From Candidatus Thorarchaeota archaeon (GTDB lineage: Archaea > Asgardarchaeota > Thorarchaeia > Thorarchaeales > Thorarchaeaceae), in the NCBI GenBank assembly GCA_016841005.1, contig JAEORG010000344.1, forward strand, positions 1 through 19,920: 19,920 nt of DNA. Reading direction: 5' to 3'. Below are positions 1,113 through 17,960 of the stretch, one piece after another. The notes beneath the pieces were generated by a model. The model made no database searches and was not told the DNA's origin. It saw only the letters and a program-made list of their open reading frames with translations. Within the stretch, counting starts at the first letter, position 1; each line of letters begins with the position of its first letter. Both the position numbers and the translations under genes were made by a program.

Positions 1113-1113
1113 A

Positions 1114-1139
1114 GGATGCCAGTAGGCATCCCCTTTTTT
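1114..1139 (+). terminator. Hairpin plus T-run terminator after the MscL-like gene
   Basis: A 7-bp perfect stem, GGATGCC (1114-1120) with GGCATCC (1125-1131), has an AGTA loop and is followed by CC and six T residues (1134-1139). It begins 2 nt after the stop codon. The T-run is on one side only, so it serves the plus strand and not the converging CPBP gene. It resembles a bacterial intrinsic terminator; in archaea the T-run alone may suffice. Confidence 0.7.
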
Positions 1140-1141
1140 GC

Positions 1142-2017: not shown

Positions 2018-2024
2018 TTGTGTT

Positions 2025-2071
2025 TCCTCCAAATTTACATTACAAAATTCAACTCTTAGGATAGTATATAG
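2025..2071 (-). promoter_or_regulatory. TATA box and SD that set the CPBP protease start
   Basis: On the minus strand, CTATATAC (2071-2064) is a good archaeal TATA box, predicting transcription from about 2041. GGAGGA (2030-2025) then precedes TTG 2017 by 7 nt. The positions agree with each other and argue against the longer 321-residue reading. The remaining 2072-2138 should hold the promoter of the divergent Lon-family gene, but I see no clear TATA box for it. Confidence 0.6.
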
Positions 2072-2138
2072 GGAAGATGATATGCGTAAGATTTGATTGA
2101 GATACAATTACAATCATTCATTTGACTGAATTTGGTAG

Positions 2139-4538
2139 ATGAGAGAGATGTCTAAAGAACTCGATGTTGAGAAGTATCGAAAATATTGTGAACCGTCATT
2201 ACTCAAGTGCGCGACCACTGAAGAACTATCCCCACATGATGATATAATCGGGCAGGAGCGAGCACTTCGTGCACTCAGTTTTGGTCTTGAGATTCGAGAT
2301 AAGGGATTCAATGTATATGCAGCTGGAGCTCCAGGAACTGGAAAGACAACAACAGTAAGTGCCTTTCTTGAAGACAAAGCAAAAGAACAGAAAATTCCTC
2401 CAGATTGGTGCTACGTATATAATTTCCAGAATCCTTCTGAACCCAATGCTATTCGACTTTCTCCTGGATGGGCAAAACAGCTAAAGAGAGACATAGATGA
2501 TTTAATTGATGCTGCGCGAAAAGTCCTTCCTGAAATTTTTGAGAGTGAAGATTACATATCCAGAAGACAGGCGACAACAAAAGCTATTGAAGTAGAGCGT
2601 AATGCGCTTTTCGCACAACTCAATCAATTGGCACAACAGAAAGGATTCATTCTTAGAAGTAGTCCAAGCGGATTACTAGTTATTCCTGTACTTGAAGGTC
2701 AACCGCTTAGTGATGAGCAAATAGCTGCGCTTGATCCGAAATCTCTTGAATCAATTAACAAAGCTAGACAAGAATTGGATGTCGAACTTCGAAATGCAAT
2801 GAGAGAACTACGGAAGATGGAAACTCAGGTGAACTCTCAGCTAGAGAAACTCAATCGTGATGTTGCTCTATTTGCAATTGGGCATATCATCTCAGATCTT
2901 GAAACGAGCTACTCGAAGAACGAAGAAGCTGTGAAATACATTGGAGAAGTTCAAGAGAGCATCCTAGGGAATATTGGACGATTTATAGAGGCAAAGGATA
3001 TTGCTTCAATGACTCCTGAACAAACCTTTGTATTAAATGAATTCTTCAAACAATATCAAGTCAACATCATGGTAAGCAATGATCAGCTCGATGGGGCTCC
3101 TGTTGTTGTGGAGTATAATCCAACCTATAGCAATCTGTTTGGGCAGGTTGAGAAAGAAGCAAGATTCGGAGTCTTATCTACAGATTTCACTATGATTCAA
3201 CCCGGAAGTTTACACAAGGCAAATGGTGGATATCTCATGATTCCTGTCGAGGACCTTGCTAAGACACCAATGTCATATCAGAGTCTGAAGAGAGCACTGA
3301 AGAATGAATCTATATCTATTGAGGAGTTTAATCTAGCAACTGGACCACTTGCCGCGAGAGGTTTGAAACCGGAACCGATTGAGCTTCATGTCAAGGTCGT
3401 ATTAGTAGGAGATACACAAGTATACGATTTACTCTACTCGCAAGATCCAGATTTCAAAGAGTTATTCAAGGTTAAGGCACATTTCGATACTGTAATGGAT
3501 AGAAGTGAAGAGAATATAGAGAAGTATGCTTCAGCTATGGCTAATGTCTGTATAAGAGAGGGTCTCAAACACCTAGATGCAAAAGCTGCAGCTAAAGTGA
3601 TTGAGTTTAGCTCAAGATTAGCTGAGGACCAAGAGAAGCTATCAACTAGATTCGCTGATGTTTCGGACATTATACGAGAGGCTACATTTTATGCAACGAA
3701 GTCAAAATCTAAAAATGTGATGGCAAAGCACATTGAGAAAGCCATTGAAGAGAAAATATATAGATCAAATCTAATACAAGAACGAATCCAAGAAATGATT
3801 GACCGAGGTGTTATTCTGATTGACACCAAAGGTGAAGCGGTAGGACAGGTGAACGCACTAAGTGTCATGCAGTTCGGAGACTTTTCATTTGGTGGTCCTT
3901 CACGAATAACTGCAAGTGTATCGATTGGTCGTCAAGGTATTGTTGATATAGAACGGGAATCAGAGCTTGGTGGTAGAATTCATACTAAAGGTGTTATGGT
4001 TCTAAGTGGTTACCTCTCACTAATCTTTGCACAAGATAAACCACTAGGTCTCACAGCTAGGCTTGTATTTGAACAGAGTTACTCTGGAGTTGATGGTGAT
4101 AGCGCATCTAGCACCGAACTCTACGCTTTATTATCAGTTTTATCGGGTATTCCAATAAAACAATCGCTTGCAGTCACAGGCTCAGTAAATCAACAAGGTC
4201 AGATACAAGCAATTGGAGGAGTAAACGAAAAGATTGAGGGATTCTATGAGATCTGTAAATTGAAAGGTCTCACTGGAAAACAGGGTGTGATTATACCTGA
4301 GAGTAATGTTCAGAACCTGATGCTTAAAGATGAGATTGTTGCTGATGCAAAGAAAGGTAAATTCCATATCTATCCTGTGAAGACAATCAGTGAGGGTATT
4401 GAAGGGCTCACAGGTCATGAGGCAGGGCTGAATGGGGAGGGGTCATTTGTTGACGGTTCCGTCTTTGACTTAGCCAATAAGCGCCTTGCTGAGATGACAG
4501 AAAAATTGAAAGAATACCCAGGTTTCGATTTAAGATAA
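2139..4538 (+). CDS. Soluble Lon-family ATP-dependent protease (COG1067 type)
   Basis: A 799-residue AAA+ protease. The N-terminal part carries Walker A Gly-Ala-Pro-Gly-Thr-Gly-Lys-Thr at residues 63-70. A long charged helical insertion (about 130-300) follows, then the His-Lys-Ala-Asn-Gly-Gly-Tyr-Leu signature with Glu-Asp in place of a standard Walker B. The C-terminal Lon protease domain (about 550-770) has the Ser-Lys dyad: Ser655 in Gly-Asp-Ser-Ala-Ser-Ser and Lys698 in Gly-Gly-Val-Asn-Glu-Lys. The 43-residue spacing matches Lon. There is no Lon N-domain and no transmembrane pair, so it is neither classic bacterial LonA nor membrane-bound archaeal LonB. It resembles the AAA_32/YcbZ-like group. 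It should degrade damaged or regulated proteins in the cytosol. ATG 2139 and ATG 2148 are both possible starts, each with a weak purine-rich leader. Confidence 0.92.
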   Translation: MREMSKELDVEKYRKYCEPSLLKCATTEELSPHDDIIGQERALRALSFGLEIRDKGFNVYAAGAPGTGKTTTVSAFLEDKAKEQKIPPDWCYVYNFQNPSEPNAIRLSPGWAKQLKRDIDDLIDAARKVLPEIFESEDYISRRQATTKAIEVERNALFAQLNQLAQQKGFILRSSPSGLLVIPVLEGQPLSDEQIAALDPKSLESINKARQELDVELRNAMRELRKMETQVNSQLEKLNRDVALFAIGHIISDLETSYSKNEEAVKYIGEVQESILGNIGRFIEAKDIASMTPEQTFVLNEFFKQYQVNIMVSNDQLDGAPVVVEYNPTYSNLFGQVEKEARFGVLSTDFTMIQPGSLHKANGGYLMIPVEDLAKTPMSYQSLKRALKNESISIEEFNLATGPLAARGLKPEPIELHVKVVLVGDTQVYDLLYSQDPDFKELFKVKAHFDTVMDRSEENIEKYASAMANVCIREGLKHLDAKAAAKVIEFSSRLAEDQEKLSTRFADVSDIIREATFYATKSKSKNVMAKHIEKAIEEKIYRSNLIQERIQEMIDRGVILIDTKGEAVGQVNALSVMQFGDFSFGGPSRITASVSIGRQGIVDIERESELGGRIHTKGVMVLSGYLSLIFAQDKPLGLTARLVFEQSYSGVDGDSASSTELYALLSVLSGIPIKQSLAVTGSVNQQGQIQAIGGVNEKIEGFYEICKLKGLTGKQGVIIPESNVQNLMLKDEIVADAKKGKFHIYPVKTISEGIEGLTGHEAGLNGEGSFVDGSVFDLANKRLAEMTEKLKEYPGFDLR

Positions 4539-4543
4539 CTGTC

Positions 4544-7500
4544 TTAGTCTACTGGAGGTGCTATCTTAACAGTTTCTGATGCACCTTCAGACTTTTTGTA
4601 CACACGTCTTCTGACCTCTATGATGAGAAGTATGCCCAAAATTCCGAGAGATGCAATTCCAGTATACAGAAGAGGATTGACTTCTCGCATGTCGACCATT
4701 ACAACATCAGCTACATGAAGATCATCGTTAACAAATACTGAAAGAGTGAAGTTATGGATTCCTCCAGGCAAGTCTGCCAATGAGTGAATAAACATATGTG
4801 GCTCTGAAACTTCAACCTCCCATTGTAGTTGGTCATTATGGGTCAACTTGACTTTGACAGTATTAATTGTCCAGATTATCCACGAGAGGAACACAGACTC
4901 ATTTTCATAGGTTAATACCAAATCAGGATATTCCGTCAATTGCGGTAGTTCGATATCATACGAAACCAAAGTAAGTGGGGATATATCCAAATTTGTGGAA
5001 GGACCTGTAATTGTGATATTTGCTGAGCCTTCCTGGTTAAACCAGCAATTACCATACCAGTAATTCTCATCACCCGAGTCGTATGCATCACCCAATCTGT
5101 TACCTTGGAAGAAATTTCCTGATATTCGAAATCCTGTGGTCCCGGTGAGCAATATTCCAAAACCTTGATTCTCTTGTAAAATATTCAGGTGGATTATTAA
5201 ATCGCCTGAATCAAGTATTATCATTCCATTGCCATTGTATCGCTCTCTTCCCCCCGTTCCATATATTATATTCTTCTCAATTGTTATTGTTTGCGAATTA
5301 CTGATCTGAATTCCTCCTTCAGAACTGAAGTATATTTGGTTGTTTTTGATTTCGAGTAAACTACCACTTGTAAAATTTAATCCAAATTTTGCATTGAAGA
5401 TTGAATTACTGTCTATTGACAAATTTGACAAAACCTCAATAACAATTCCATCTAAATTACAATCAATTTGATTGAAAGATAACTTTGAGTCAAAAATAAA
5501 CATACCACGAATCCCAGAGTCACTAGTTGTGAAGGTGTTGTTTGTTATCTCTGCGTTTCCTACCCGAGCAATGTGGATCCCATCGCCTATACCACTGTTC
5601 ACCGTATTTCGCGCAAACTCAAGGTTCTGAATATTATTCAATTCAATAACACAATTTGTGAAGAAACTGTCAAGAATTATATAATTCCCAAACGCACTAA
5701 AATAGATTCTAGAATCAACGAAAACAGAACTTACAATCCAAATTTCGCTTGACGTTATAATTTCAAATGAACTATTTCCTTCGAAAGATATCTGATTAAA
5801 ATAGACGCTCACTGAATCATAAATCTGTATACCATTCTTAATTCCATCTATAATGATAATATCAGAAATAAACAGATCATTACTATCAAAGATATCAAGA
5901 CTAAAAAGTTCTGTATATTGCGCCATTATAATCGATGAACAGTAGGCTATTACAACTTGTCCGAATGCACTAGGATCAATGTTTGCGTTGTTTATGTTGT
6001 AAAAATAGCCAAACAAAGTGCTGTTTACATATACATCATTGAAAGTGTTCAGCCAATAAGATGGTAAACTTCCTGAAAATTGAACCGGGTACACAATTTG
6101 AAGGTTAAGGAACTGACAACCTGATGATTGACTGACATAAAGTTCGGTCATATTAGAATTTACGAATTTAGAGTTAAAGGACCAAAAGACAACTAAATTA
6201 TCGATGTCTGAATTAAAGACTGATACATTCGATGATTGCCAAATATCTAACGCATTTTCGAACATCATTGCACTCACTATACAAATGTTCGAAGATTCAC
6301 GGATATTTACGCCATACCAAGACCTATTCATCGAAAAGTTACTCATTTCGATATTTTGAGAATCAGCAATATTGATGCTAGAGTAGATATTGTCTGTAAT
6401 AGATATTTTATCAAAATTACAAGAATCGGAAAATCGGATATCTAAGGAAAAAAGTTCAGACAGCACTGAAGAAGGTTTAGACGTTACATTCTGACAAGAA
6501 ATGATAAACACTTGGTAGTACTTGCTCATGTTGATAGCGATTGAATTGGTATTAAGGAAGTAACCGATTTCTTCTCCATTGTTTGTCACATTGGAAATAA
6601 TGTGAGAGTAGTAACCCAAATGATCTCCTAAGATTTTCAATGATGAATTCAAGAGATTACAGTCCTGTACCAGACAATTCTCAGAAGAATCAAGGGTGAT
6701 TTGTCCATGTACTTTAGATATGAAGGTACATTGTATGATAGCACAAATTTCAGAATCTACTATGTTTACTTGTTCCAATTCTGCAACGATAGAGCTATTG
6801 CGTAGAGTGCAGAATGAACTCAGGTAAATTTGTACTGCCCTCAACCTACCTGTGATTGACGAATTGAGAATCTCAATATAAGAAGACTCCAAAACCATAA
6901 TTCCAATTGATGGGTTGCCAGTCGATAAATACGAAATTGAAACTCTATTTGATTCGGAAAGATAAAAACTCTCTGTGTTGTTGTACACACTGGTGCTGTT
7001 GAAAACTGTAATCTCTATATCTTCTGAATCACTGCACTGAAAGTCAGCTCCACCGTTTGAATTTCTCTCAACATCAATGTCCTCGAATACGCAATTTACC
7101 GCATTTGATAATATGATACAATCGAATGTATCCACGAAATTGCTTCGACTAACTGAGCTATTTGTCAGATAATTCCATTCAATACCTATCCCCAAATCAA
7201 TGAAGGTACAATTTTCAATTCTTGCATTGTCAACTAGAATGAATCTTATTCCCGTTCCTCCACCACTTAGTGTACAATTCCGTATAATGAAGTAAGCAAC
7301 TGTTCCAATAATTGAGATACAAAATCCCGCAGATACAATTTGCATATCTTCAATGACATATGGATTGGATTCTGTTCCATCTCCTGGGAGCCCCAAAGAG
7401 GAAAATCCACTATCAGTATTGATGTAAATAATCGGATCCATTCCCTGAGAGGCAATTGGATTGATGATTGGTATACTTGATTTCTCATAATCTGAAGATG

Positions 7501-7564
7501 ATGTTGCAGCTGGTATGATTGGAAATAGAACAATGAAAAGTATGAATACTAACACTCGCTGCAT
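4544..7564 (-). CDS. Secreted, membrane-anchored right-handed beta-helix protein
   Basis: A surface protein of about 1006 residues. It has an N-terminal signal sequence (about residues 3-22, hydrophobic core ending near Ala-Ala-Thr-Ser). Next comes a lead-in with Gly-Asp-Gly-Thr-x-x-Asn-Pro-Tyr-Val-Ile-Glu-Asp, typical of NosD/CASH-type beta-helix proteins. Some 700 residues of short irregular repeats rich in Asn, Ser, Ile and Gly follow (Ile-x-Asn-Cys-Thr, Ser-x-Asn-x-Ile), ending in Asn-Tyr-Trp-Tyr-Gly-Asn. A beta-sandwich-like domain (about 860-960), one transmembrane helix (about 964-982) and a basic cytoplasmic tail finish the chain. Many Asn-x-Ser/Thr sites suggest N-glycosylation outside the cell. 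Sugar binding or cell-surface contact is possible but unproven. I chose ATG 7564 because GAGAGG (7573-7578) is 8 nt upstream; ATG 7570 is only 2 nt from it. The 3' end lies 5 bp from the convergent Lon-family gene. Confidence 0.85.
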   Translation of the reverse strand: MQRVLVFILFIVLFPIIPAATSSSDYEKSSIPIINPIASQGMDPIIYINTDSGFSSLGLPGDGTESNPYVIEDMQIVSAGFCISIIGTVAYFIIRNCTLSGGGTGIRFILVDNARIENCTFIDLGIGIEWNYLTNSSVSRSNFVDTFDCIILSNAVNCVFEDIDVERNSNGGADFQCSDSEDIEITVFNSTSVYNNTESFYLSESNRVSISYLSTGNPSIGIMVLESSYIEILNSSITGRLRAVQIYLSSFCTLRNSSIVAELEQVNIVDSEICAIIQCTFISKVHGQITLDSSENCLVQDCNLLNSSLKILGDHLGYYSHIISNVTNNGEEIGYFLNTNSIAINMSKYYQVFIISCQNVTSKPSSVLSELFSLDIRFSDSCNFDKISITDNIYSSINIADSQNIEMSNFSMNRSWYGVNIRESSNICIVSAMMFENALDIWQSSNVSVFNSDIDNLVVFWSFNSKFVNSNMTELYVSQSSGCQFLNLQIVYPVQFSGSLPSYWLNTFNDVYVNSTLFGYFYNINNANIDPSAFGQVVIAYCSSIIMAQYTELFSLDIFDSNDLFISDIIIIDGIKNGIQIYDSVSVYFNQISFEGNSSFEIITSSEIWIVSSVFVDSRIYFSAFGNYIILDSFFTNCVIELNNIQNLEFARNTVNSGIGDGIHIARVGNAEITNNTFTTSDSGIRGMFIFDSKLSFNQIDCNLDGIVIEVLSNLSIDSNSIFNAKFGLNFTSGSLLEIKNNQIYFSSEGGIQISNSQTITIEKNIIYGTGGRERYNGNGMIILDSGDLIIHLNILQENQGFGILLTGTTGFRISGNFFQGNRLGDAYDSGDENYWYGNCWFNQEGSANITITGPSTNLDISPLTLVSYDIELPQLTEYPDLVLTYENESVFLSWIIWTINTVKVKLTHNDQLQWEVEVSEPHMFIHSLADLPGGIHNFTLSVFVNDDLHVADVVMVDMREVNPLLYTGIASLGILGILLIIEVRRRVYKKSEGASETVKIAPPVD

Positions 7565-7572
7565 ATCCATAT

Positions 7573-7604
7573 CCTCTCATCATTGAAAATAATCTGCTCT
7601 TTTA
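7573..7604 (-). promoter_or_regulatory. SD and possible TATA box of the beta-helix gene
   Basis: GAGAGG (7578-7573, minus strand) lies 8 nt before ATG 7564 and decides between two nearby ATG codons. A TTAAAAG at 7604-7598 with purines upstream could be the TATA/BRE element. If so, the leader would be very short, so the TATA call is tentative. Confidence 0.4.
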
Positions 7605-7699
7605 ACTTTCCATTTCTACAACCTATAAGAATGCGAAATTTACATACCGTAGCATACATGACGTTTCTTTATGTAGGATAATGTATACATCAAAACCCC

Positions 7700-7704
7700 G
7701 AGGG
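7700..7704 (+). promoter_or_regulatory. SD that sets the start of the PAS/kinase-like gene
   Basis: GAGGG at 7700-7704 lies 6 nt before ATG 7711. The upstream ATG at 7681 has no SD. The TATA box is uncertain: CTATAAGA at 7623-7630 and a CTTTATGT near 7667 are both possible. Confidence 0.5.
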
Positions 7705-7710
7705 ACCCAT

Positions 7711-9447
7711 ATGTCCGACGTGAAACAAACCACTGAGTGGTTAAAACAAATTATGGATGTAGTCCATGATGGCATGATTGTCATCCAGGATGAAGAGATC
7801 GTAATCGTCAATGAACTTTTTGCTAACATGATTGGATATGATGAAGATACTCTTATGGATATGGACTTCGAAGACCTTGTAGATCCGTTATCACGTCGAC
7901 AAAATAAAGAGGTCATCGAGGCTTTAATCTTTGGAGAGGACCCAACAAAATTCAGTACAAGGCTAAAATCAAAAGATGGGAGAATTGTACATTGTGAGAT
8001 CAATCCTACCGTTATCAGCATGGGTAATGGTCCTGTGGTCCTCGCAGCTGTTCGTGACGTTTCTAGACAAATAGAGCTTGAGGAGGCAGTAATCCATCTA
8101 GAACAAAGATTTGCATCGTTATATGACCTCTCTCCTGTGGCTTATATCACACTGAATAGTGAGGGAGTAATCAATCAAGTAAACCAGGCAACAGAAGAAC
8201 TTCTTGGATGCAGTGCTGATGGAATTATTGGAAGACCATTTGGCGACTTCCTAGCTAAGAGAAAAGATGAGGAATATGACCCTAGTGCTGCAATCATAAA
8301 TGAAGTGATGAGAGGTAAGAATGTCGAAGGAATAGAGCTTGAACTTACTGATTGTGAAGATCGATCTGTGTGGGTCAGTGTTTCTTCTCGGTCTCTTAAT
8401 CCAGAATCCGAACGACCAACTGAGATTGGTCTAACTGCTGTGCAAATTACACGCAGAAAACGTGCAGAAGAACGATTGAGAGAAGAAAGTGAACGTGCTA
8501 ATCTATACTTCGACCTGATGACAAGTGACTTGAATATCATCCTGCAGAGTGTGCTTTTTGCTTTAGAAGACTTGAAACTATCACTGCAGATGACAGAACG
8601 CGAATTAGGCTTAGTCAATAACTCGGCATGGAACTTGAGGAGGGCTGCAAGATTAATAGTTAACATGGGTGTATTGCTATCCCTAGGTCGAGCTCCACCT
8701 GAATCAGGGAGTGTCAACCTTCGCTCACATATTAGAAGAGCAGTTTTAGAAGTTGAACGTGATTTCGAAGGAAAGAAGTTGGAATTCCAATCAAATATTC
8801 CCGAAAAAGGTTATGAAGTAAAGGGGCATGCTTTCTTACACAATGTTTTCTTCAATATACTACACAATGCAATGACATATGATGAGAAAGATCCAGTCGA
8901 AATAACCGTGAAGGTTGATCCTCAAGATTATGATCGAGAGGTGAGGATTGAGTTCGAGGATCAAGGTCCTGGAATAACTGAAACTCAAAAACAATATATC
9001 TTTCGAAGAACTCCTGATGCAGATAGTGCTGTTGTAGGAAAAGGTCTTGGGTTAACTGTAGCTGATAGATATATCACTCATTTAGGTGGAAGGATTTGGG
9101 TTGAGGACAGAGTAAAAGGCGATCCCTCAAAAGGTAGTAAATTTGTTGTTGTATTACCTCTCTGGAAAGAAACACTAGAACTACCCACCATCACATTTTA
9201 CAAATCTGACCATTGTGTTTTTTGTGGACCGGTCTTTGACACACTCTCTTCGATTCTTGATGAGATGGGCATAGGACGTTCTGCAATCAACATTATCAAT
9301 ATTGATGACCCTGCATCGGGTTTCACTGAGGACGATTTACCAGCTCTACCAACAATAGAGATGGGTGGACAACAATTAACTGGTTTCTTATCCGAGGAGG
9401 ATCTGAGGGTCGGAGTAATGCAGTTGCTTATGACTAGCGCAAGATAA
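7711..9447 (+). CDS. PAS-PAS histidine-kinase-like protein lacking the phospho-His, with C-terminal thioredoxin-like domain
   Basis: A soluble protein of 578 residues from ATG 7711 (588 from ATG 7681). Two PAS sensor domains occupy about 10-120 and 131-250, each followed by charged helices. A dimerisation helix follows (about 262-300), whose H-box reads Leu-Met-Thr-Ser-Asp-Leu-Asn. Ser272 sits where the phosphorylated His is expected, and no other His lies in that helix. The ATPase domain (about 335-485) looks intact: N-box Asn-Ile-Leu-His-Asn-Ala (382-387), Asp-x-Gly-x-Gly (417-421) and Gly-Lys-Gly-Leu-Gly-Leu (443-448). Residues 490-578 form a thioredoxin/glutaredoxin-like unit with Cys502-Val-Phe-Cys505 and a likely cis-Pro547 in Ala-Leu-Pro-Thr. 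It probably binds ATP but cannot autophosphorylate in the usual way. The next gene carries the missing His, so it may act in trans. No response regulator is in the window. Confidence 0.85.
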   Translation: MSDVKQTTEWLKQIMDVVHDGMIVIQDEEIVIVNELFANMIGYDEDTLMDMDFEDLVDPLSRRQNKEVIEALIFGEDPTKFSTRLKSKDGRIVHCEINPTVISMGNGPVVLAAVRDVSRQIELEEAVIHLEQRFASLYDLSPVAYITLNSEGVINQVNQATEELLGCSADGIIGRPFGDFLAKRKDEEYDPSAAIINEVMRGKNVEGIELELTDCEDRSVWVSVSSRSLNPESERPTEIGLTAVQITRRKRAEERLREESERANLYFDLMTSDLNIILQSVLFALEDLKLSLQMTERELGLVNNSAWNLRRAARLIVNMGVLLSLGRAPPESGSVNLRSHIRRAVLEVERDFEGKKLEFQSNIPEKGYEVKGHAFLHNVFFNILHNAMTYDEKDPVEITVKVDPQDYDREVRIEFEDQGPGITETQKQYIFRRTPDADSAVVGKGLGLTVADRYITHLGGRIWVEDRVKGDPSKGSKFVVVLPLWKETLELPTITFYKSDHCVFCGPVFDTLSSILDEMGIGRSAINIINIDDPASGFTEDDLPALPTIEMGGQQLTGFLSEEDLRVGVMQLLMTSAR

Positions 9448-9488
9448 ACGACGTACATTCTAATACTGAAACGCCTTTCAAGCTCTGC

Positions 9489-11039
9489 TTGCTTGAGGTT
9501 GATGAAGGCTTGGGAATACATTTGGAGAAAACGCCCGATCTAATGGAAGTCTTGATTCTAGCAGTTACTGTATATGTCGCAACATACATGCTCTATGTAT
9601 CATTTTCTGGACAGATTTGGAATTATGTTTCTCCACAAATAGTGGCAATATCTCTGACACTTCTGATTGCAGCAGTACTAGCGACGTCGAGTATGATATT
9701 CACCCATACCCTGATTCATTTTTCTCGGAAAAAGTCCATCCGATACTTGGTTCTCTTGTTGATGGCATTTGATGCAATTATCGTATGTATCATGTTTCTA
9801 ATTTCTCATCCATCATTTGAATTATGGTCTCCGTTTGCTGACAGAAACCGAAATCGTTCAGTCGCTATTGCTTGGGGCATGATGCTGATGATAGGGAGTC
9901 TTGCAGGTTCATTCTCAGGAGAATCACCTGCATCATTGCGAATTGAATTAATTGGTGTTATTACCGGGTTCATCATTTACCCTTCCATCTGCTTGTGGAT
10001 GATATTAAGTCCAGAACCAGTTTTTATCTCAACAGAGCCCTCAGGAGGGCTTAGTGGATTGACACCTACGGGTTGGATTATGATTCTGGTACTCGGTTTT
10101 TTCATGTCTGTTTCGTTCTTCAAATATCTAAGAGAATGGATCAGAAACCGTGACAGAGAGATCATTGCACTAACATCATCAATGTACTTCTGGCTGTTCG
10201 CTTTGGTTATCGTAGTAATCTTAGAGAATCCGTTCCAGTTTGCTGAAATCATATGGGTAGGCTCTGTAACTGCAGGATTTTCGTTAATTGCGATTGCTAT
10301 GTTATCTACCGTTATAATTGAACCTCGGAGAGAACTTGAAAGAACAGTCAAGAAACGAACAGAAGAGTTATCGATTTCAAGAAAGGAGAGCGAGTTTTAC
10401 TTGGGAATGTGGACTCATAAGATGGGGAATCTATTACAAGGGTTATTGGTTTACCTTGATCTTCTGTCAACACCCGAAATCGATGATGAAAGAGTCACAG
10501 ATCATCGTCGTTCAGCTATGGAAATTGCTAGAGAGGCAACACTACTAAACACACAAGTGACTATGCTTTCGCAGGCAAGTGATTCTGAACACATTGAATA
10601 CAAACCAATCTCTCTTGCAAGTATAATATCAAGTGCTATGGATAAATCATCCAAGCTACTAAATCCCGAGTCCTTTAGGGTGAATTTCAGAACTCTAAGC
10701 GATGTCCAAGTGATGGGTGATAAAATGTTGGATGTCGCGATTCTAAGTATTTTATCTTTCTTTGTAAAGGCTAGATTGCATGAGGAACTGAATATCACGA
10801 TTTGGTATGAACAAAAGGCAGAACTAGTAAATACTTATATCGAATGTGTTGGTCGAGAAATTCCAAAGGCAATTCAAGAATTCTTAGAAGTACATAAAGT
10901 TCCTCCCACTCCATCAATTGAACTTGATGTTTATGTTTCTCGGACCATTGTTGAACTCTTTGATGGTAGCATCTCTTACGAACATATTGCTAATGATCGA
11001 ATTAATCGAATAACATTGACCCTTAATGCAGGAAACTGA
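9489..11039 (+). CDS. Membrane histidine-kinase-like protein with H-box but degenerate ATPase domain
   Basis: A protein of up to 516 residues with seven to eight membrane segments between about 19 and 275. A short basic coiled-coil (280-300) and an H-box follow, Met-Trp-Thr-His-Lys-Met-Gly-Asn-Leu-Leu-Gln, with His310. The rest has the length and helix pattern of a HATPase_c domain (about 375-514). However, the N-box Asn, the Asp-x-Gly-x-Gly box (here Glu-Cys-Val-Gly-Arg-Glu) and the Gly-x-Gly-Leu lid are all lost, while the late Val-Ser-Arg-x-Ile-Val-Glu-Leu-x-x-Gly helix and strand remain. ATP binding is unlikely, so His310 would need phosphate from another protein. The H-box helix aligns with that of the preceding gene, suggesting paralogy. 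The start is uncertain: TTG 9489, TTG 9510 (GAGGT 11 nt upstream) or ATG 9543, just before the first membrane helix. The gap to the upstream gene is 41 bp, so co-transcription is likely. Confidence 0.75.
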   Translation: MLEVDEGLGIHLEKTPDLMEVLILAVTVYVATYMLYVSFSGQIWNYVSPQIVAISLTLLIAAVLATSSMIFTHTLIHFSRKKSIRYLVLLLMAFDAIIVCIMFLISHPSFELWSPFADRNRNRSVAIAWGMMLMIGSLAGSFSGESPASLRIELIGVITGFIIYPSICLWMILSPEPVFISTEPSGGLSGLTPTGWIMILVLGFFMSVSFFKYLREWIRNRDREIIALTSSMYFWLFALVIVVILENPFQFAEIIWVGSVTAGFSLIAIAMLSTVIIEPRRELERTVKKRTEELSISRKESEFYLGMWTHKMGNLLQGLLVYLDLLSTPEIDDERVTDHRRSAMEIAREATLLNTQVTMLSQASDSEHIEYKPISLASIISSAMDKSSKLLNPESFRVNFRTLSDVQVMGDKMLDVAILSILSFFVKARLHEELNITIWYEQKAELVNTYIECVGREIPKAIQEFLEVHKVPPTPSIELDVYVSRTIVELFDGSISYEHIANDRINRITLTLNAGN

Positions 11040-11117
11040 TATGGATTGATTTGTTTGAGTCTCGATTAATTACATATCTTCACGGAAAGAAACATAGAGA
11101 AAGAAAAATAACCAAAG

Positions 11118-11678
11118 ATGAAAATATTGCCAATTATGACAGTCGAAGGTTATCCAAATTGGTCTCGGGGATTGGATGTCATTGTTGGGATAACCCTGCT
11201 TCTTGTAGGTGCATGGATTTTCATCTATGTAGAGGTGGTAACTGATATAGTACTGAATATTTTCGCATTTGCTGTTCTTCTCATGGGAGGTACTAGAATT
11301 ATCAAGGGCATGAAGTTGGAAACAATACCTAATAGATTACGAGTCCTCAACATTCTATTCGGAATTATTATGATTCTCCTTAGCTTTACCGTCTTCTTCT
11401 ATCCTTCGCTCGGTCAAGTTCTTCTAATTCGAATTCTGACAACTGGATTCGTGCTAATAGGTATTATTAGACTTTGGAGCGGACTCACGAGGACTGATAT
11501 TCCTGGATGGGCAAAAGCAGCTCAAAGTATTGGTGGACTGCTGATACTTGGATTAGGTATTGTGATCTTCGTCATTCCAATAGCTGTATTCAATCTGCTC
11601 GTGCTCATAGTATCTGTTGCTATCCTTGTAAATGGAGCTATACGCATCGTGAATGGTGTCACAGGAAAGATACGTTAA
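11118..11678 (+). CDS. DUF308 / HdeD-like six-pass membrane protein
   Basis: A 186-residue protein with six membrane helices arranged as three hairpins. Each repeats a Leu/Ile-rich helix, a short turn with Gly-x-x-x-Ile or Tyr-Pro, and a helix ending in a Gly-x-x-Arg-Ile-Ile-Lys/Asn-Gly pattern (near residues 58-64, 118-124 and 172-180). This internal repeat is typical of the DUF308 (HdeD) family. In E. coli HdeD is linked to acid resistance; the archaeal role is unknown. It lies 78 bp after the kinase-like gene on the same strand, so it could be the last gene of that unit. ATG 11118 and ATG 11136 are both possible starts; the leader is purine-rich but without a clear SD. The conserved hydrophobic part begins after residue 18 and is unaffected. 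Confidence 0.8.
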   Translation: MKILPIMTVEGYPNWSRGLDVIVGITLLLVGAWIFIYVEVVTDIVLNIFAFAVLLMGGTRIIKGMKLETIPNRLRVLNILFGIIMILLSFTVFFYPSLGQVLLIRILTTGFVLIGIIRLWSGLTRTDIPGWAKAAQSIGGLLILGLGIVIFVIPIAVFNLLVLIVSVAILVNGAIRIVNGVTGKIR

Positions 11679-11686
11679 AGTGGAAG

Positions 11687-11706
11687 TAGGATGAGATCCT
11701 ATTAAT
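11687..11706. terminator. Possible weak hairpin terminator between convergent genes
   Basis: TAGGAT (11687-11692) and ATCCTA (11696-11701) form a 6-bp stem with a 3-nt loop, 9 bp after the DUF308 gene stop, followed by a weak TTAATTT tract. It lies in the 59-bp gap between convergent genes. The stem is real, but the terminator function is a guess. Confidence 0.3.
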
Positions 11707-11737
11707 TTAGCCACGATAGGAGCTTCTCTCAATTATA

Positions 11738-12217
11738 CTACCATTCAATTGGTTCGAGGTCTAACAGACGCAATCGTTCTTCGCGTCTTTTCTTTGCTAG
11801 ATTTGCTCTAGACTTCTCTTCTTCATCACGTAGCTCTAAGCGGGGAACTTCTATTGGGTGCCCATCAGAATCTACTGCAACATATGTTAAAAATGCTCTA
11901 CAAGTTTTTCTTCTCTCACCCGAAATCGGATTCTCAGATGTGACACGTACTTCTATCTCCATCGATGTTTTACCTACGTAGTTAACCCAACTCTCCAAGT
12001 TGACGATATCTCTTTGTCTTATCGGATTAAGAAAGTTCAAAGAGTCGATTGAAGCAGTAACGACTCCACTTCTACAATGACGTTTTGCAACAATTCCGGC
12101 AATTGCGTCAATCCAATCCAGTAGTCTTCCACCATAGAGTGTACCATGGTTGTTAACATCGTTAGGAAAGACAATCTCTGTCATCGTTGTCCTTGAGTCT
12201 TCTACTGTCTTTGACAA
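11738..12217 (-). CDS. Hotdog-fold acyl-CoA thioesterase (YciA/BACH type)
   Basis: A 159-residue single hotdog domain that should hydrolyse acyl-CoA to free acid and CoA in the cytosol. Residues 19-30 hold the family signature Asn-Asp-x-Asn-x-x-Gly-Thr-Leu-Tyr-Gly-Gly, followed by Arg-Leu-Leu-Asp-Trp-Ile-Asp. Asn22 and Asp37 are the expected catalytic residues. The Ser-Leu-Asn-Phe-Leu-Asn-Pro-Ile strand and the Arg-Ala-Phe-Leu-Thr-Tyr-Val-Ala strand also fit. The C-terminal 35 residues are highly charged and helical. The start is TTG 12217; homologues typically begin with the same Thr/Val-x-x-Ser-Arg lead-in, which supports it. The frame stays open upstream into the CorA gene but contains no ATG, GTG or TTG there. 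ATG 12184 is a less likely start. The gene follows CorA by 82 bp on the same strand. Chain-length preference cannot be read from sequence. Confidence 0.88.
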   Translation of the reverse strand: MSKTVEDSRTTMTEIVFPNDVNNHGTLYGGRLLDWIDAIAGIVAKRHCRSGVVTASIDSLNFLNPIRQRDIVNLESWVNYVGKTSMEIEVRVTSENPISGERRKTCRAFLTYVAVDSDGHPIEVPRLELRDEEEKSRANLAKKRREERLRLLDLEPIEW

Positions 12218-12299
12218 TACATCACTTCCATTTCGGAATAATAGAAGTACAATTTCTCCTTTTGCATTACTGAGCGATATCTGCGTGGTCAGAGAAACA

Positions 12300-13382
12300 T
12301 CAAATCCAATGAATCCTTCTGAAATATCCCAAGAGAATTAGTGCGATAAGAAGCATTACAAGTAGGATTATCGGATAACCATATTCCCAATGAAGTTCAG
12401 GACCCATGGGAACAAAATTCATTCCATATATAGAGGCGATAAATGTTATAGGTATGAATATTGTTGAGATGACTGTCAGAATCTTCATGATGTCATTCAT
12501 TCTATTGTTGAGATTTGTTAGATAAATATCAAGCATGGTTGTAAGAGAATCTTTGAATGTCTCCACATAATCTGTAGCTCTGATTACATGATCATATAAG
12601 TCTCTGAGATATATTTCAGTTTCAGTTTGAATAAGAGTTGCCTCATCCCTATTCAAACGAAACACGACTTCTCGTAATGGCCACAGGAATTTTCTCAAAA
12701 CAAGGAGGTCTCTTTTGAGGTCATATATAGAAGAAAGGAGTTTTTCTGAAAACTCGCTGATAATAGCATCTTCAAGTTCTTCAATTTTATCTCCCACAAC
12801 TTCAAGAACTACGAAATAATTGTCTACAATCAGATCAACAAGGGCATACGTAAGATAGTCGGAGTGGCTCATACGAATTCTACTACCTGGAACAAGAAGA
12901 CGTTTCAGAATTGGTTCAAATAAACCATCAGCCGCCTCCTGAAAGGACAAGACATAGTTCTTTCCTAAGATGATACTAATCTGTTCAGAGTAGATTGTAT
13001 CTTTCTTCTCATTATACGTGAATGCCCGTAGGACGACATATACACCATCTTTGAGAATATCTACTTTAGGTCTTTGATTTGTACTCGATAGATCTTCTAT
13101 TGTCAGCGGATGAAGCCCAAAATTTGTAGCTATTTTTTCAATCTTCTCTACATCATGGACCCCATTGACATGAATCCATCTTGTAAGTCCTTCATCCTTT
13201 AAAGGAACACATTCCTCTACCGTATCCCCTTCAAGTATTTCCAAGCAGTCATTATTGAAATCCACAATCCGATAGGTGACTTTGTCTACAAGTCTTGGCC
13301 CAGTATGAACAATCGTACCCGGAGGAAGTCCTACTTTTGATTCGAAATTGGTCACGTTTACATCACCGTCATGGTGTATCAT
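12300..13382 (-). CDS. corA: CorA-family magnesium channel
   Basis: A 360-residue protein of normal CorA layout. A cytoplasmic alpha/beta domain (about 25-180) and long helices (about 190-295) precede two C-terminal membrane helices (about 298-318 and 337-354). The selectivity signature Tyr-Gly-Met-Asn is at 319-322, followed by the short extracellular loop with Glu-Leu-His-Trp-Glu-Tyr-Gly-Tyr-Pro. CorA forms pentameric channels for Mg2+ and sometimes other divalent ions; Co2+ or Ni2+ transport cannot be excluded. The chain ends in a basic Arg-Arg-Ile-His tail. ATG 13382 lies inside the end of the MscS-type gene (14-bp overlap), has no obvious SD of its own, and is probably translated by coupling. 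The thioesterase gene follows 82 bp downstream, completing a likely three-gene unit. Confidence in the family is very high. Confidence 0.95.
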   Translation of the reverse strand: MIHHDGDVNVTNFESKVGLPPGTIVHTGPRLVDKVTYRIVDFNNDCLEILEGDTVEECVPLKDEGLTRWIHVNGVHDVEKIEKIATNFGLHPLTIEDLSSTNQRPKVDILKDGVYVVLRAFTYNEKKDTIYSEQISIILGKNYVLSFQEAADGLFEPILKRLLVPGSRIRMSHSDYLTYALVDLIVDNYFVVLEVVGDKIEELEDAIISEFSEKLLSSIYDLKRDLLVLRKFLWPLREVVFRLNRDEATLIQTETEIYLRDLYDHVIRATDYVETFKDSLTTMLDIYLTNLNNRMNDIMKILTVISTIFIPITFIASIYGMNFVPMGPELHWEYGYPIILLVMLLIALILLGYFRRIHWI

Positions 13383-14283
13383 ATACTGTTGTTAGGTCAG
13401 CCATGAAATCTGAGACTCGCTTAATAATAGTCATTGGCTTTCTTACAATGATAGCAAAACGATAAGTCAATCCTGCATTTGGAACAGCCCAGACTTGATA
13501 TTCAGGTCTAATCAAAAATATACTTGACCACTTCTCACATATTTGATCAAACCGATTACGTAACTCACCATGGTCATAAGTCATGTGATAGGTGAGGTCA
13601 AATGTATACCGATATGCAGTTTCATTACTAGCTATCTTCTTTAGCTGTTTCACAGCCCCTCTGATCATACGGCGATAGTCTCTGTCTAGTTCAGCCTCTT
13701 CAACATCTTCTTCCTTGATTTTGATGTAATCATCCACATTAATTTTGAAATTCGTAACTTCACTTGTCACAATTTTACTGTTGGGTATTAGTTGTCTAGT
13801 TTCGTCAGGTAAAAGAATCCTAGTATAGTTCAGTGTTATTTCTCTAACAATGCCTTCTGCAGTACCGATTCTAACATAGTCTCCAACCTTGAATGGTCTT
13901 GCGACCAGAACATAAAATCCACTCACGATATTTCCTAATGCCTGAGAAAATGCAAGACCTATTGCTGTTCCAAAAATTGCAGATAACGACAAGACAGTTC
14001 CAACATCTGGTTCCAGTATCTGAAGAGTGAATGAGATTGCAATAACGAAGAAAAGAAGTCTGATTATGAGTGTGATTCCGGTCGCAGCTTCAGTACCCAT
14101 TCCCATCGAAGTCAGAGTTCTACGCATTGTTCGAACTACAATAATGTATACAATAAGAAGAACAATGAGCCATATAACTAGAAGTATGTAACTCCAACCT
14201 GCATTAAGAAAATACAGAAGATAGCCGAAAGGGTCTGAACCAAAATCTGGAGGAAGTGTTGGAGTAGTAGTATTTGTCTGCAA
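13369..14283 (-). CDS. mscS: MscS-family small-conductance mechanosensitive channel
   Basis: A 304-residue MscS-type channel. Membrane helices lie at about 28-50, 64-90 and 95-125. The pore-lining third helix carries Gly-Thr-Ala-Ile-Gly-Leu-Ala-Phe-Ser-Gln-Ala-Leu-Gly-Asn (105-118). It is followed by the beta-domain signature with Arg-Pro-Phe-Lys-Val-Gly-Asp-Tyr-Val (129-137) and Ile-Pro-Asn-Ser near 175. The C-terminal alpha/beta cytoplasmic domain (about 190-290) is present. Such channels release small solutes when membrane tension rises. The start is TTG 14283, with GGGAG (14297-14293) 9 nt upstream and a TATA box at 14308-14315. The SD overlaps a perfect 12-bp palindrome (14284-14295). 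The 3' end overlaps corA by 14 bp, implying co-translation of an osmotic channel and an ion channel. Confidence 0.93.
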   Translation of the reverse strand: MQTNTTTPTLPPDFGSDPFGYLLYFLNAGWSYILLVIWLIVLLIVYIIVVRTMRRTLTSMGMGTEAATGITLIIRLLFFVIAISFTLQILEPDVGTVLSLSAIFGTAIGLAFSQALGNIVSGFYVLVARPFKVGDYVRIGTAEGIVREITLNYTRILLPDETRQLIPNSKIVTSEVTNFKINVDDYIKIKEEDVEEAELDRDYRRMIRGAVKQLKKIASNETAYRYTFDLTYHMTYDHGELRNRFDQICEKWSSIFLIRPEYQVWAVPNAGLTYRFAIIVRKPMTIIKRVSDFMADLTTVYDTP

Positions 14284-14292
14284 GAGAGATCT

Positions 14293-14317
14293 CTCCCACT
14301 GTCCTAGAAATATATCC
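14293..14317 (-). promoter_or_regulatory. TATA box and SD of the mscS-corA unit
   Basis: On the minus strand an AT-only ATATATTT (14315-14308) preceded by GG is a good TATA box, predicting transcription from about 14286. GGGAG (14297-14293) is an SD candidate 9 nt before TTG 14283. If transcription really starts near 14286 the SD would be excluded, so only one of the two elements may be in use. Confidence 0.45.
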
Positions 14318-14320
14318 TGC

Positions 14321-14352
14321 TTAAGAATCTAATAGATTAGATTAAGAATCTA
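14321..14352. repeat. 11-bp direct repeat flanking a small inverted repeat
   Basis: TTAAGAATCTA occurs at 14321-14331 and again at 14342-14352, with AATCT-AAT-AGATT (14326-14338) forming a short hairpin across the first copy. The second copy includes the stop codon of the acetyltransferase gene. It lies just upstream of the mscS TATA box and could be a regulator site or chance in AT-rich DNA. Confidence 0.35.
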
Positions 14353-15213
14353 CAATTTCTTCTCTAATAGAAATAGACCAAAATCAGGCTCTTCCTCATA
14401 TTGCATCAATTCGAGGTTATTTAATTCTTCATAGAAATCGTAAGGAAATATCATCATAATTCGATCGATATTCTTTTTCTTTGCTAATTCAATCTGTTTT
14501 GACATCTGCTGCAGGAAAAGATGTGCATGGTTGGTATATATTGTAAATGCCCAAATAGTACCCTGCATATCATGCCGAAGTGATCCAACTGATAACGATT
14601 GTAGATGTTCTTCGGTTATGTGTGACCATATTTCAACTTCCTCAAATATATTGAATATATCGAGCGATGCGTCAAATGCTTTCCAATCAATAACAATAAC
14701 ATTGTTGGGAATCAAACCAGAGGATATTACACGATCATAATCTTGCTCAATATTTAACTGAGTAAGATTTTCTGTGTCTACATCAAACTCCATTTTCTCC
14801 AAATTATTATCCCAAAAAACTCCCATTTTGAAGATTCGTTTCATGCCAATCTTATATGCTAAATGAAGAGATTGGTCATTATCAATCCCTGTGGTATATC
14901 TTACTCTTTCAACACCGAGTTCTTTTGCCATAATAATAAGAAGGTCGGTAATAGCTGATGCAAATCTTTTTCCCCTATAATCAGGATGTACACGAAGTCC
15001 CTCCATCCATCCAGTAGTTCCTTTGTCTATTATTCTCAGATTAGCTAGTGCTGCCACCCGTCCGTTTTCTTCGATTGCTATTGTATGGCAAGTAGGATTC
15101 TTCAACCATTCATCGAAGTAGTGTGGAAGATAGTCATGACCATCCCAAGTATTTCTTGCTATTTCCAAAATATCTTCCCTATCAGTTTCCCGTAAAGGTC
15201 GAGTCTTTACCAT
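14350..15213 (-). CDS. GNAT-family N-acetyltransferase (NAT16/histidine acetyltransferase-like N-terminus)
   Basis: A 287-residue protein. The N-terminal 130 residues are a GNAT domain: Arg-x-x-Asp beginning, Asp-Tyr-Leu-Pro-His (27-31), then Gly-Leu-Arg-Val-His-Pro-x-Tyr-Arg-Gly (72-81) leading into the acetyl-CoA loop. The Asp-Tyr-Leu-Pro and Glu-Gly-Leu-Arg-Val segments resemble vertebrate NAT16 (histidine N-acetyltransferase) as I remember it, so a small amino-acid substrate is possible but unproven. The acetyl-CoA motif Arg-x-x-Gly-x-Ala has Arg83 in place of the middle Gly, which is unusual. The C-terminal half (140-287) has no family I recognise; it begins acidic and contains a Trp-rich patch. 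ATG 15213 follows a short AT-rich leader with no clear SD. The stop lies 66 bp before the mscS start on the same strand, but mscS has its own likely promoter. Confidence 0.82.
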   Translation of the reverse strand: MVKTRPLRETDREDILEIARNTWDGHDYLPHYFDEWLKNPTCHTIAIEENGRVAALANLRIIDKGTTGWMEGLRVHPDYRGKRFASAITDLLIIMAKELGVERVRYTTGIDNDQSLHLAYKIGMKRIFKMGVFWDNNLEKMEFDVDTENLTQLNIEQDYDRVISSGLIPNNVIVIDWKAFDASLDIFNIFEEVEIWSHITEEHLQSLSVGSLRHDMQGTIWAFTIYTNHAHLFLQQMSKQIELAKKKNIDRIMMIFPYDFYEELNNLELMQYEEEPDFGLFLLEKKL

Positions 15214-15275
15214 AATCTGAGATAAGCTGTGTTTCTTAATCTAGGTTTCGAGATTTTTTCAGCTACCTGTAAGCC

Positions 15276-15319
15276 TATAAACAATCTAAACAATCAATCA
15301 TAATACCATTTGAGAGGAG
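15276..15319 (+). promoter_or_regulatory. TATA box and SD that set the start of the anchored extracellular protein
   Basis: TATAAA at 15276-15281 (within CCTATAAAC) predicts transcription near 15305. GAGAGGAG at 15312-15319 lies 8 nt before TTG 15328. An earlier TTG at 15310 would place the SD inside the coding region, so 15328 is preferred. Confidence 0.65.
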
Positions 15320-15327
15320 TCCTACTA

Positions 15328-16452
15328 TTGGTACATCGCTCAAGAACTCTGCTACTTGGTGCCTTCGCAGTCCTATTTGTAACAAGTTTCATACCATTTG
15401 GTTTCTATTATTCCAGCTTATGGGATCAATCTACAACAGATTTGGAAGGGTCACCAATTGAGACCTCTGTATTCGCTTCATATGTTGGAGAGAATGGCAG
15501 TTCGGTGATATATCCTGATGCCTACCAAAGTACAACTATGCGTCCTCTGGTATTAACATCTGATTACTCTGAATTTGCTGATGAGTCGATGATAGGATAT
15601 GGCGAAGCTTTAGTGATTGCAGAAAATTGGTTAATTCGAATTGGGCCATCAATGATAGACTGGAATTTGTGGTACTATTTCTCCTCAGACGCACCTCCCT
15701 CTTGGACATTTTATTTCAATCATGTGGACTTTGTCGCATTTGTAGTTGTTGACTCTCTCTCAGGCAAGGTCATCGAATATGAGAGTAAGTATCTTCATGA
15801 TTATGATCCAACTCCAATAGACCTACTTGAAGCAGAAAACTTTACGAAGAACTTCCTGGAATCAGAAGGAATTATCCTTCCAACCACTGCCAGATATATT
15901 ACTGGAGAACCTTATGACTGTCAGAGGTTTTATTCCCTGGTATTTCAAGAATATTCTGGTTTGGTCAAAGTAGATGACTCGCAGGTCATCGTGAGAACTT
16001 CTGCATTTACCAGAGGTATTTCATACTTCAAATACTCATGGCTAGGTGTTTCAGACCTCGATGTGTCCGGTGTACTATCTCCAGAATCCGCACAAAGAAA
16101 TGCACTGATACAATTTACTGAATTTGGTTCTGTCAGTGATCCAATCTGGATCGGGTCACAACTAACTCTATTCGAGATGAACAATCCTGATAATGTAAAC
16201 AGCACACTATGGCGACTTGCGTGGGTACTCGACTTGACTGATGGAGCTGATGAAGAATATAGTGCAAAAATAATAGTTGATGCTTATTCGGGAAACATAT
16301 TCGGTTTCCGAGACTCTTTCAACTCCTTCTCACTTGTACCTGAGATGACAACAATTGGGTCCACAGAATTCTTGATTGGATTTGGAGGTTCCACATTCTT
16401 ATCAGCGCTTGTTATCGCTATGTACACTCTTAGCAAATGGCATAGAGAATAA
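15328..16452 (+). CDS. Membrane-anchored extracellular protein, possibly PepSY/YcdB-like
   Basis: A 374-residue protein from TTG 15328 (380 if TTG 15310 is used). A basic start (Val-His-Arg-Ser-Arg) precedes a hydrophobic segment (about 6-26) that is a signal sequence or anchor. The central 300 residues are polar and look extracellular. A last membrane helix (about 348-366) and a short basic tail follow. Two segments share a plan: a helix with Ala/Glu (near Ala-Glu-Asn-Trp and Ala-Gln-Arg-Asn-Ala) followed by strands that end Val-Asp-x-x-Ser/Gly-x-x-Ile (Val-Val-Asp-Ser-Leu-Ser-Gly-Lys-Val-Ile and Val-Asp-Ala-Tyr-Ser-Gly-Asn-Ile). That is the pattern of PepSY or YcdB/YcdC domains, which often inhibit or chaperone secreted proteases. 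I cannot confirm the family. It has its own promoter and no partner on its strand. Confidence 0.65.
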   Translation: MVHRSRTLLLGAFAVLFVTSFIPFGFYYSSLWDQSTTDLEGSPIETSVFASYVGENGSSVIYPDAYQSTTMRPLVLTSDYSEFADESMIGYGEALVIAENWLIRIGPSMIDWNLWYYFSSDAPPSWTFYFNHVDFVAFVVVDSLSGKVIEYESKYLHDYDPTPIDLLEAENFTKNFLESEGIILPTTARYITGEPYDCQRFYSLVFQEYSGLVKVDDSQVIVRTSAFTRGISYFKYSWLGVSDLDVSGVLSPESAQRNALIQFTEFGSVSDPIWIGSQLTLFEMNNPDNVNSTLWRLAWVLDLTDGADEEYSAKIIVDAYSGNIFGFRDSFNSFSLVPEMTTIGSTEFLIGFGGSTFLSALVIAMYTLSKWHRE

Positions 16453-16482
16453 TCGTAATAGATTGATTTCATTCCTAATGTG

Positions 16483-17922: not shown

Positions 17923-17952
17923 TGTCTTAGGTCCGCCTACAATTCACGTGCG

Positions 17953-17960
17953 TTATAAAT
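17953..17960 (-). promoter_or_regulatory. TATA box of the eutA-like gene
   Basis: ATTTATAA on the minus strand (17960-17953) is a clear TATA-type element, placing the transcript start near 17931, about 9 nt before ATG 17922. This implies a near-leaderless message and fits the lack of an SD. It lies in the 106-bp gap after the arrestin-like gene; nothing else is seen in that gap. Confidence 0.5.

Follow-up and report, generated by a model that had tools for sequence, protein, structure and literature searches.

Background

Histidine kinases usually act as homodimers. Here we describe two adjacent genes, termed A and B, on a contig of a Candidatus Thorarchaeota archaeon (GenBank assembly GCA_016841005.1, contig JAEORG010000344.1, positions 1 to 19,920 of the forward strand; this whole stretch of 19,920 nucleotides is called the window). 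Alignments and phylogenies demonstrate that each gene comes from a histidine kinase family of its own and that the two were disabled separately, with complementary results, A having lost the phosphoacceptor histidine and B the ATP site. In one Thorarchaeota sub-clade the two genes lie side by side on the same strand.

Heterodimers built from complementary broken histidine kinases have been called rare, and the cases seen are bacterial (PMC12675982, PMC3591291). FasB and FasC of group A Streptococcus form a heterodimer in two-hybrid assays, with His246 of FasC as the likely phosphorylation site; the kinase domain of FasC is dispensable, and FasC has been proposed to be a pseudokinase to which FasB supplies the kinase domain (PMC12675982). 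Neither CheA3 nor CheA4 of Rhodobacter sphaeroides autophosphorylates alone, and mixing the two leads to phosphorylation of CheA3 (PMC3591291). The paralogues ChrS and HrrS form a heterodimer, though not when ChrS is truncated (PMC9491836). DivL of Caulobacter is a pseudo-histidine kinase with several PAS domains, its H, N, G1, F and G2 boxes being otherwise retained (PMC4211667), while PhyP/PhyT, Spo0B and ChpT are histidine kinase-derived proteins with a degenerate ATPase domain, PhyP being membrane-anchored and carrying an HRxxN motif (PMC5898713). Proteins with a HisKA domain and no HATPase domain numbered 1556 of 42417 in one survey (PMC3591291), and archaeal examples are on record (PMC5847659). 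The same is true of an Asgard sensor kinase without the catalytic histidine (KKK40347.1; PMC10343646). An earlier sequence-only reading of this locus knew of no described Asgard system of the sort it proposed, and the titles and abstracts of the open-licence papers surveyed show no such pair of Asgard kinases.

Gene A: a kinase without its histidine

Gene A encodes a soluble protein in which every part of a sensor kinase is recognizable except the phosphoacceptor. Its features are as follows, with H+n denoting positions counted from the H-box position.

7711..9447 (+): gene A, His-less soluble sensor kinase of 578 residues, ordered PAS-PAS-DHp-CA-CxxC tail (Pfam, AlphaFold2 model, 120 aligned relatives)
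7744..8463 (+): two PAS domains, residues 12-118 and 139-251 (Pfam)
8449..8691 (+): two-helix hairpin of the dimerisation and histidine phosphotransfer (DHp) domain (model helices 247-291 and 296-327)
8524..8526 (+): Ser272 at the H-box position; S, N, T, Q, R or K in His-less relatives, His in paralogues (sequence, alignments)
8542..8544 (+): Leu at H+6, found only in the B-linked sub-clade of A and in B (alignment, 18/18 versus 0/169)
8854..8868 (+): N-box, NILHN (sequence, conservation)
8959..8973 (+): G1 box, DQGPG (sequence)
9037..9051 (+): G2 box, GKGLG (sequence)
9187..9444 (+): redoxin-like tail with HC[VI]FC, the cysteines at 9214-9216 and 9223-9225 (conserved Cys, order of elements in the model, weak profile matches)

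Pfam matches to PAS_9 (3.1e-20) and HATPase_c (4.2e-19) were obtained, and the AlphaFold2 model has a predicted local distance difference test score of 80.8. Compared with a canonical histidine kinase, the HATPase_c domain with its N, G1 and G2 boxes is present and the histidine of the DHp domain is missing, so that sequence and Pfam match together bear out what had first been noted for this protein, namely Ser at the H-box position with intact ATP boxes. PAS domains followed by a full DHp and catalytic and ATP-binding (CA) domain, with the histidine replaced, fit the layout of a DivL-like pseudo-histidine kinase.

The last 86 residues form a tail in which the CxxC motif is followed by Leu-Pro-Ala-Leu-Pro-Thr and the modelled elements run b-a-b-b-b-a (b, strand; a, helix). 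A search with A returned 348 proteins, of which the best 120 were aligned with the query; these 120 plus 67 rows from genomic loci (window included) make up an A-family set of 187, in which a few genes are counted twice. Both tail cysteines are present in 186 of the 187, and HC-x-F-C is invariant in the query and the best 120 of the 348 relatives. Profile matches are weak: NrdH-redoxin 1r7h at E 0.27, thioredoxin 1fo5 at E 0.15 (outranked by an unrelated tumour necrosis factor receptor chain at 0.062), and Pfam Glrx-like in 3 of the 10 tail rows scanned, at best E 0.026, with no match for the window's own tail. By its CxxC motif and the order of its modelled elements, the tail looks like a small redoxin.

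Loss of the histidine in family A

At the H-box position, the query and the best 120 of the 348 relatives carry Ser (97), Asn (13), Thr (6) or Gln (5), and His in no case. Over the 187 A-family proteins the counts are S117, H35, N15, Q12, T6, R1 and K1; the 35 His-bearing proteins are termed A-II and the 152 His-less ones A-I. The sequence-only reading had named His-bearing homologues of the first gene as evidence against itself, and these do exist. A-II has the same layout as A-I where examined (one protein closely, 13 aligned lengthwise), with an H-box of the THDLNN type and four more invariant cysteines in and around the tail (13 rows).

The two groups differ beyond the histidine itself. 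Asn at H+4, where it is linked with phosphatase function, is kept in 34/35 A-II and 5/152 A-I proteins. Seven ATP-site residues were scored (both Asn of the N-box, the Asp and two Gly of G1, and the last two Gly of G2), and all seven are kept in 33/35 A-II proteins versus 39/152 A-I; on one 40-row branch of the A tree the second N-box Asn is replaced by Tyr, Phe or His. This tree (94 rows after collapsing at 85% identity) separates 65 His-less from 29 His-bearing rows by a single branch (Shimodaira-Hasegawa-like approximate likelihood ratio test 99); it is a quick, unrooted tree with long branches, two of them joined, and its deep order is uncertain. That His is the ancestral state rests on ordinary kinases having it. 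As read from alignment and tree, the histidine was lost on one branch of family A. Because the replacing residue varies among His-less proteins, the loss of His, and not the gain of Ser, is the trait; Ser272 is unlikely to be a new phosphorylation site, since Asn, Gln, Arg or Lys occupies the position in 29/152 His-less relatives.

In one genome, A-II (L129, 1456-3243) adjoins TusA, DUF5400, DsrE, an ArsR-type helix-turn-helix regulator and a P-type ATPase, and members of these neighbour gene clusters recur next to A-II in further genomes. From these neighbours and the extra cysteines, one may guess that A-II is a sensor of thiols, sulfur or metals.

Gene B: a membrane kinase without its ATP site

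Gene B, downstream of A, shows the reverse condition.

9510..11039 (+): gene B, kinase-dead histidine kinase anchored in the membrane, with 9489, 9510 and 9543 as possible starts (34 relatives, alignment, AlphaFold2 model)
9540..10310 (+): predicted membrane region of eight model helices, the last continuing into the DHp domain (AlphaFold2 model helices; MASE3-like in relatives)
10416..10418 (+): conserved His in H-K-x-G-N-x-L-Q (His in 58/58 and H+4 Asn in 58/58 B rows)
10419..10421 (+): Lys at H+1; Glu instead in the six relatives whose second G2 Gly is retained (K in 52 and E in 6 of 58 rows)
10596..11030 (+): degenerate CA domain, Asp replacing the second G2 Gly at 10926-10928 (no HATPase_c; fold by structure)

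No Pfam HATPase_c match was found in gene B at E<=1, and Foldseek comparison of the AlphaFold2 model indicates that its DHp-CA part retains the histidine kinase fold. The claim that the second protein keeps the H-box His and has lost the ATP boxes is thereby confirmed, with the fold remaining. The best of eight B relatives scanned came close to the MASE3 family (PF17159), scoring 30.6 bits where the cut-off is 31, and the window's B had no match to it at E<=1.

The B set comprised 70 sequences (36 unique genome frames, window included, and 34 search relatives), reduced to 58 rows by dropping five short sequences and near-copies above 90% identity. Of the Ser and His positions whose conservation the sequence-only reading had proposed to survey, the His of B is invariant in these rows and the Ser of A is variable among its His-less relatives. 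The second G2 Gly is kept in 6/6 rows with Glu at H+1 and in 0/51 readable rows with Lys, where it is replaced by Asp (44), Asn (4), Glu (2) or His (1). The six Glu-type relatives (L040, L062, L110, L116, L117 and L007) match HATPase_c above cut-off, one of them barely (26.6 versus 26.4), and match the B profile over its full length, membrane part included; they form a graded series toward the dead B. On a quick tree of the 58 rows, the 52 Lys rows make up one side of a branch with support 97 and the Glu rows lie outside, so that a single branch carries both the change from Glu to Lys at H+1 and the replacement of the second G2 Gly. From this pattern it appears that a membrane kinase lost its ATP site once in family B and kept its phosphoacceptor. 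Mean entropy in Lys-type B is lowest in DHp helix 1 (0.92 bits, against 1.86 in helix 2, 2.04 in the membrane region and 2.53 in the CA domain). A DHp histidine, Asn at H+4 and a dead CA domain together fit the pattern of kinase-dead phosphotransferases of the PhyP/Spo0B/ChpT type.

The A-B operon and its sub-clade

Adjacency was scored downstream of A on the same strand. Among 31 genome copies of A-I, B lies directly downstream in 2 (G001 and G002), is not there in 28 (more than 900 nt examined), and one copy stands at a contig end; the window is a third case of the operon. Spacing in the three is 1 to 95 bp. Synonymous sites are saturated between the window and the two other copies (proportion of synonymous differences, pS, 0.80-0.85), and the proportion of nonsynonymous differences, pN, runs from 0.14 to 0.26 in A and from 0.21 to 0.38 in B. 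Both genes are under purifying selection, and the saturation of synonymous sites between operon copies indicates that the pair has long been kept together. Judged by eye on the trees, A and B of the operon branch in broadly the same way. The adjacency whose conservation the sequence-only reading had proposed to survey is found across saturated divergence within the sub-clade, and is lacking in the 28 other copies.

Only the window's sub-clade shows the A-B operon. The A tree shows it as nine rows grouped with support 100, and in full it has 18 proteins (the window, the two genome copies and P0035-P0049) that are partly non-independent, P0037 and P0049 lying on contigs sized as those of the genome copies and P0035 being 96% identical to the window. 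Equal contig sizes suggest seven contigs with both A and B (10319, 7255, 3524, 33182, 4228, 29672 and 22405; two of these belong to G001 and G002). Two properties set the sub-clade apart from other A proteins. All seven scored ATP-site residues are kept in 17/18 of its members versus 22/134 other A-I, and Leu occupies H+6, which in HisKA kinases lies in the core of the helix bundle, in 18/18 members, in nearly all B and in 0/169 other A-family proteins.

The idea that one ancestral kinase was split into two genes is rejected, since A and B are each closer to complete-kinase relatives than to one another. The sequence-only interpretation is partly supported: the two proteins are complementary in their residue states and share an operon in the sub-clade, but A is not one half of a kinase divided between the two genes.

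Distribution across genomes

The phylum searches covered 227 genomes with at most 6 candidates scored per genome, and the class searches up to 28-29 candidates. A with its tail was found in one class only (47 of the 227 genomes), in 41/47 at E<=1e-65; three genomes outside the class match A at E<=1e-75, the matches ending before the tail. B was found in the same class only, in 20/47 genomes at E<=1e-30. Within the class, A-I is present in 31 genomes, A-II in 34 (the same 34 with an A-II profile) and B in 20, absences in draft genomes being soft. A genome with almost all of its bases on a 3.16-Mb contig contains A-I, B and A-II, with A-I and B 24 kb apart, and another, with A-II on a 2.58-Mb contig, contains A-II alone of the three. 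Were B present in every A-I genome, finding at least 18 of the 31 without it would have a probability of 0.03 at 60% and 0.001 at 70% completeness, which is a bound only, with completeness assumed.

A general co-dependence of A and B is not supported by co-occurrence in the 47 genomes. The characterization of the heterodimer as obligate, each half being useless alone, fails for the families as a whole, with B downstream of 2 of 31 A-I copies and an association p of 1.0. A-II occurs in 18/20 genomes with B versus 16/27 without (p=0.025), and in 17/18 genomes with Lys-type B versus 17/29 others (p=0.008; G006 and G019, which have Glu-type B only, are counted among the others), and some form of A occurs in 18/18 genomes with Lys-type B versus 23/29 others (p=0.07), all three values being uncorrected for kinship, completeness or number of tests. 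The co-occurrence of B with A-II is not used as evidence here; it would fit A-II rather than A serving B. Eight genomes (G003, G014, G023, G025, G029, G032, G033 and G039) carry A-I and A-II on the same contig, their starts separated by 17-24 kb.

A possible split kinase and its alternatives

We tentatively favor the reading that A and B were united in one operon and work as a split kinase in the sub-clade, which the sequence evidence makes quite possible though short of probable. A would sense a soluble signal, perhaps a thiol or redox signal, bind ATP and supply ATP-dependent phosphorylation, and B would sense a membrane signal. The two would meet through a mixed DHp bundle in which the phosphoryl group from A goes to the His of B, and B would then pass it to, or take it from, a separate and distant receiver protein. 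Candidate receivers exist, PF00072 domains occurring in 45/47 class genomes, and FasB/FasC and CheA3/CheA4 serve as precedents. Outside the sub-clade the families would act apart, A as a DivL-type pseudokinase and B as a phosphotransferase or phosphatase of the PhyP/Spo0B type. The more specific proposal, a restored kinase in which a soluble redox-sensing A charges a membrane-sensing B as an AND gate, with the change from Asn to Leu at H+6 of A as an adaptation of the interface, is somewhat unlikely.

Several observations weigh against the split kinase. B was already kinase-dead before the operon arose, and its residue at H+1 is Lys where an acid is usual in kinase chemistry. Five sub-clade A clusters (with longest contigs of 20555, 55201, 120409, 15493 and 750198 bases) have no B on a contig of matching size, and by inference from contig sizes A-B linkage within the sub-clade seems not to be absolute. 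Over the 47 draft genomes A-I and B show no association (B in 13/31 genomes with A-I versus 7/16 without; Fisher p=1.0). The first G2 Gly, which was unscored, is Thr in one member of the sub-clade (L002/P0049). Among the 54 aligned DHp positions, 14 show changes specific to the sub-clade, of which only those at H+6 and H+21 match B; one of the five between H-6 and H+16 does so, and H+4 does not. The kept ATP site and the Leu at H+6 are hints only, because each is a single-branch event.

The best surviving alternative, a real possibility if a doubtful one, involves no phosphotransfer between A and B. B would be a membrane phosphotransferase or phosphatase like PhyP, Spo0B or ChpT that works with receivers, and A a DivL-like pseudokinase that merely tunes it, or other kinases, by contact. 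B shares the described state of PhyP, namely a membrane anchor, H-[R/K]-x-x-N and a degenerate ATPase (PMC5898713), and A matches the DivL layout of several PAS domains with the histidine replaced and the ATP boxes kept (PMC4211667). The invariant Asn at H+4 of B and the presence of receiver domains (PF00072) in 45/47 class genomes agree with such roles, as does the loss of at least one of the seven scored ATP-site residues in 112/134 A-I proteins outside the sub-clade. The retention of these residues in nearly all sub-clade A proteins goes beyond the needs of a pure scaffold, yet DivL keeps its boxes too.

It is rather improbable that the true partner of A is A-II, with A as the His-less subunit of mixed dimers and B a separate signalling protein whose gene lies downstream in some genomes. 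Heterodimers of paralogous histidine kinases are known, for instance native ChrS/HrrS (PMC9491836), 24/31 A-I genomes carry A-II, in eight of them on the same contig as noted above, and A-I proteins outside the sub-clade never have Leu at H+6, 89% keeping Asn there as in A-II. However, the association is insignificant (A-II in 24/31 A-I genomes versus 10/16 others, p=0.32), seven A-I genomes show no A-II, and within the sub-clade Asn at H+6 has given way to Leu.

That A and B adjoin by chance, as drifting remnants of two kinases that share no function, would agree with the lack of a genome-wide association and with the varied genes that flank B elsewhere among the B loci listed, but is very unlikely given the purifying selection on both genes, an adjacency of 1-95 bp kept in three genomes despite saturation, the invariant His and Asn of B and the CxxC motif of all but one A protein.

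Neighbouring genes

Upstream of A lies a LonB/LonC-like protease gene (2139-4538, +); a protein of the same cluster adjoins the A-B operon in G002 (L100), and another is some 5 kb away from B in G013 (L111). A right-handed beta-helix (NosD-like) protein of 1008 residues (4544-7570, -) is divergent from A, as is a relative in G001. Farther along the window are a match to the ethanolamine utilisation protein EutA (1.2e-137; 16483-17922, -), with similar proteins near A-I in at least two further genomes (L133, L134), and two adjacent arrestin-fold genes (18029-18880 and 18896-19903, -) matching Arrestin_N at 1.7e-8 and 9.5e-16, with weaker matches to Spo0M and, in the second gene, to Vps26. Genes for channels of the MscL, CorA and MscS types lie around the operon (723-1112, 12300-13382 and 13369-14283) and might suggest that B responds to membrane stress. 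No receiver was found among the ten other window genes scanned.

Significance

Two families were found here in one Asgard class only: kinases with a CxxC tail, one branch of which is His-less, and membrane kinases that are kinase-dead. In the sources their members are labelled as histidine kinase, PAS domain protein or hypothetical protein. The intact, ancestor-like families (A-II and Glu-type B) survive in the same class, which makes the locus a natural Asgard test case; because they persist there, a direct comparison can test in which order the losses, the capture of a partner and the change of the interface took place.

Comparison with known systems

The system nearest in logic to A and B is FasB/FasC, in which adjacent complementary sensor-kinase-like genes likewise share one locus. 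Both Fas proteins have six predicted transmembrane segments and their locus includes a response regulator (PMC12675982), whereas A is soluble and His-less and carries PAS domains and a CxxC tail, and the A-B pair has no adjoining receiver gene. CheA3/CheA4 resembles the pair in having the His on one protein and the ATP domain on the other, and provides a biochemical precedent that split kinases work; it differs in that these are chemotaxis CheA proteins from which whole domains are gone (P1, or P3 and P4), while A and B keep the DHp-CA fold and have lost catalytic residues. DivL is the nearest to A taken singly, though it belongs to a different lineage and has Tyr (Ala in one species) where A proteins have Ser, Asn, Gln or Thr, and the available portions of its account mention no CxxC tail. 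PhyP/PhyT, Spo0B and ChpT are the nearest to B, which differs in its multi-helix MASE3-like membrane region and in having Lys at H+1, where HRxxN proteins have Arg (PMC5898713). Compared with the incomplete archaeal and Asgard kinases on record, the CA fold of B is present but dead, and those accounts, in their available portions, tell of no adjacent complementary pair. The kind of system is thus already known; what is new, as far as searched, is how its parts are combined, the lineage in which they occur and their origin in two steps.

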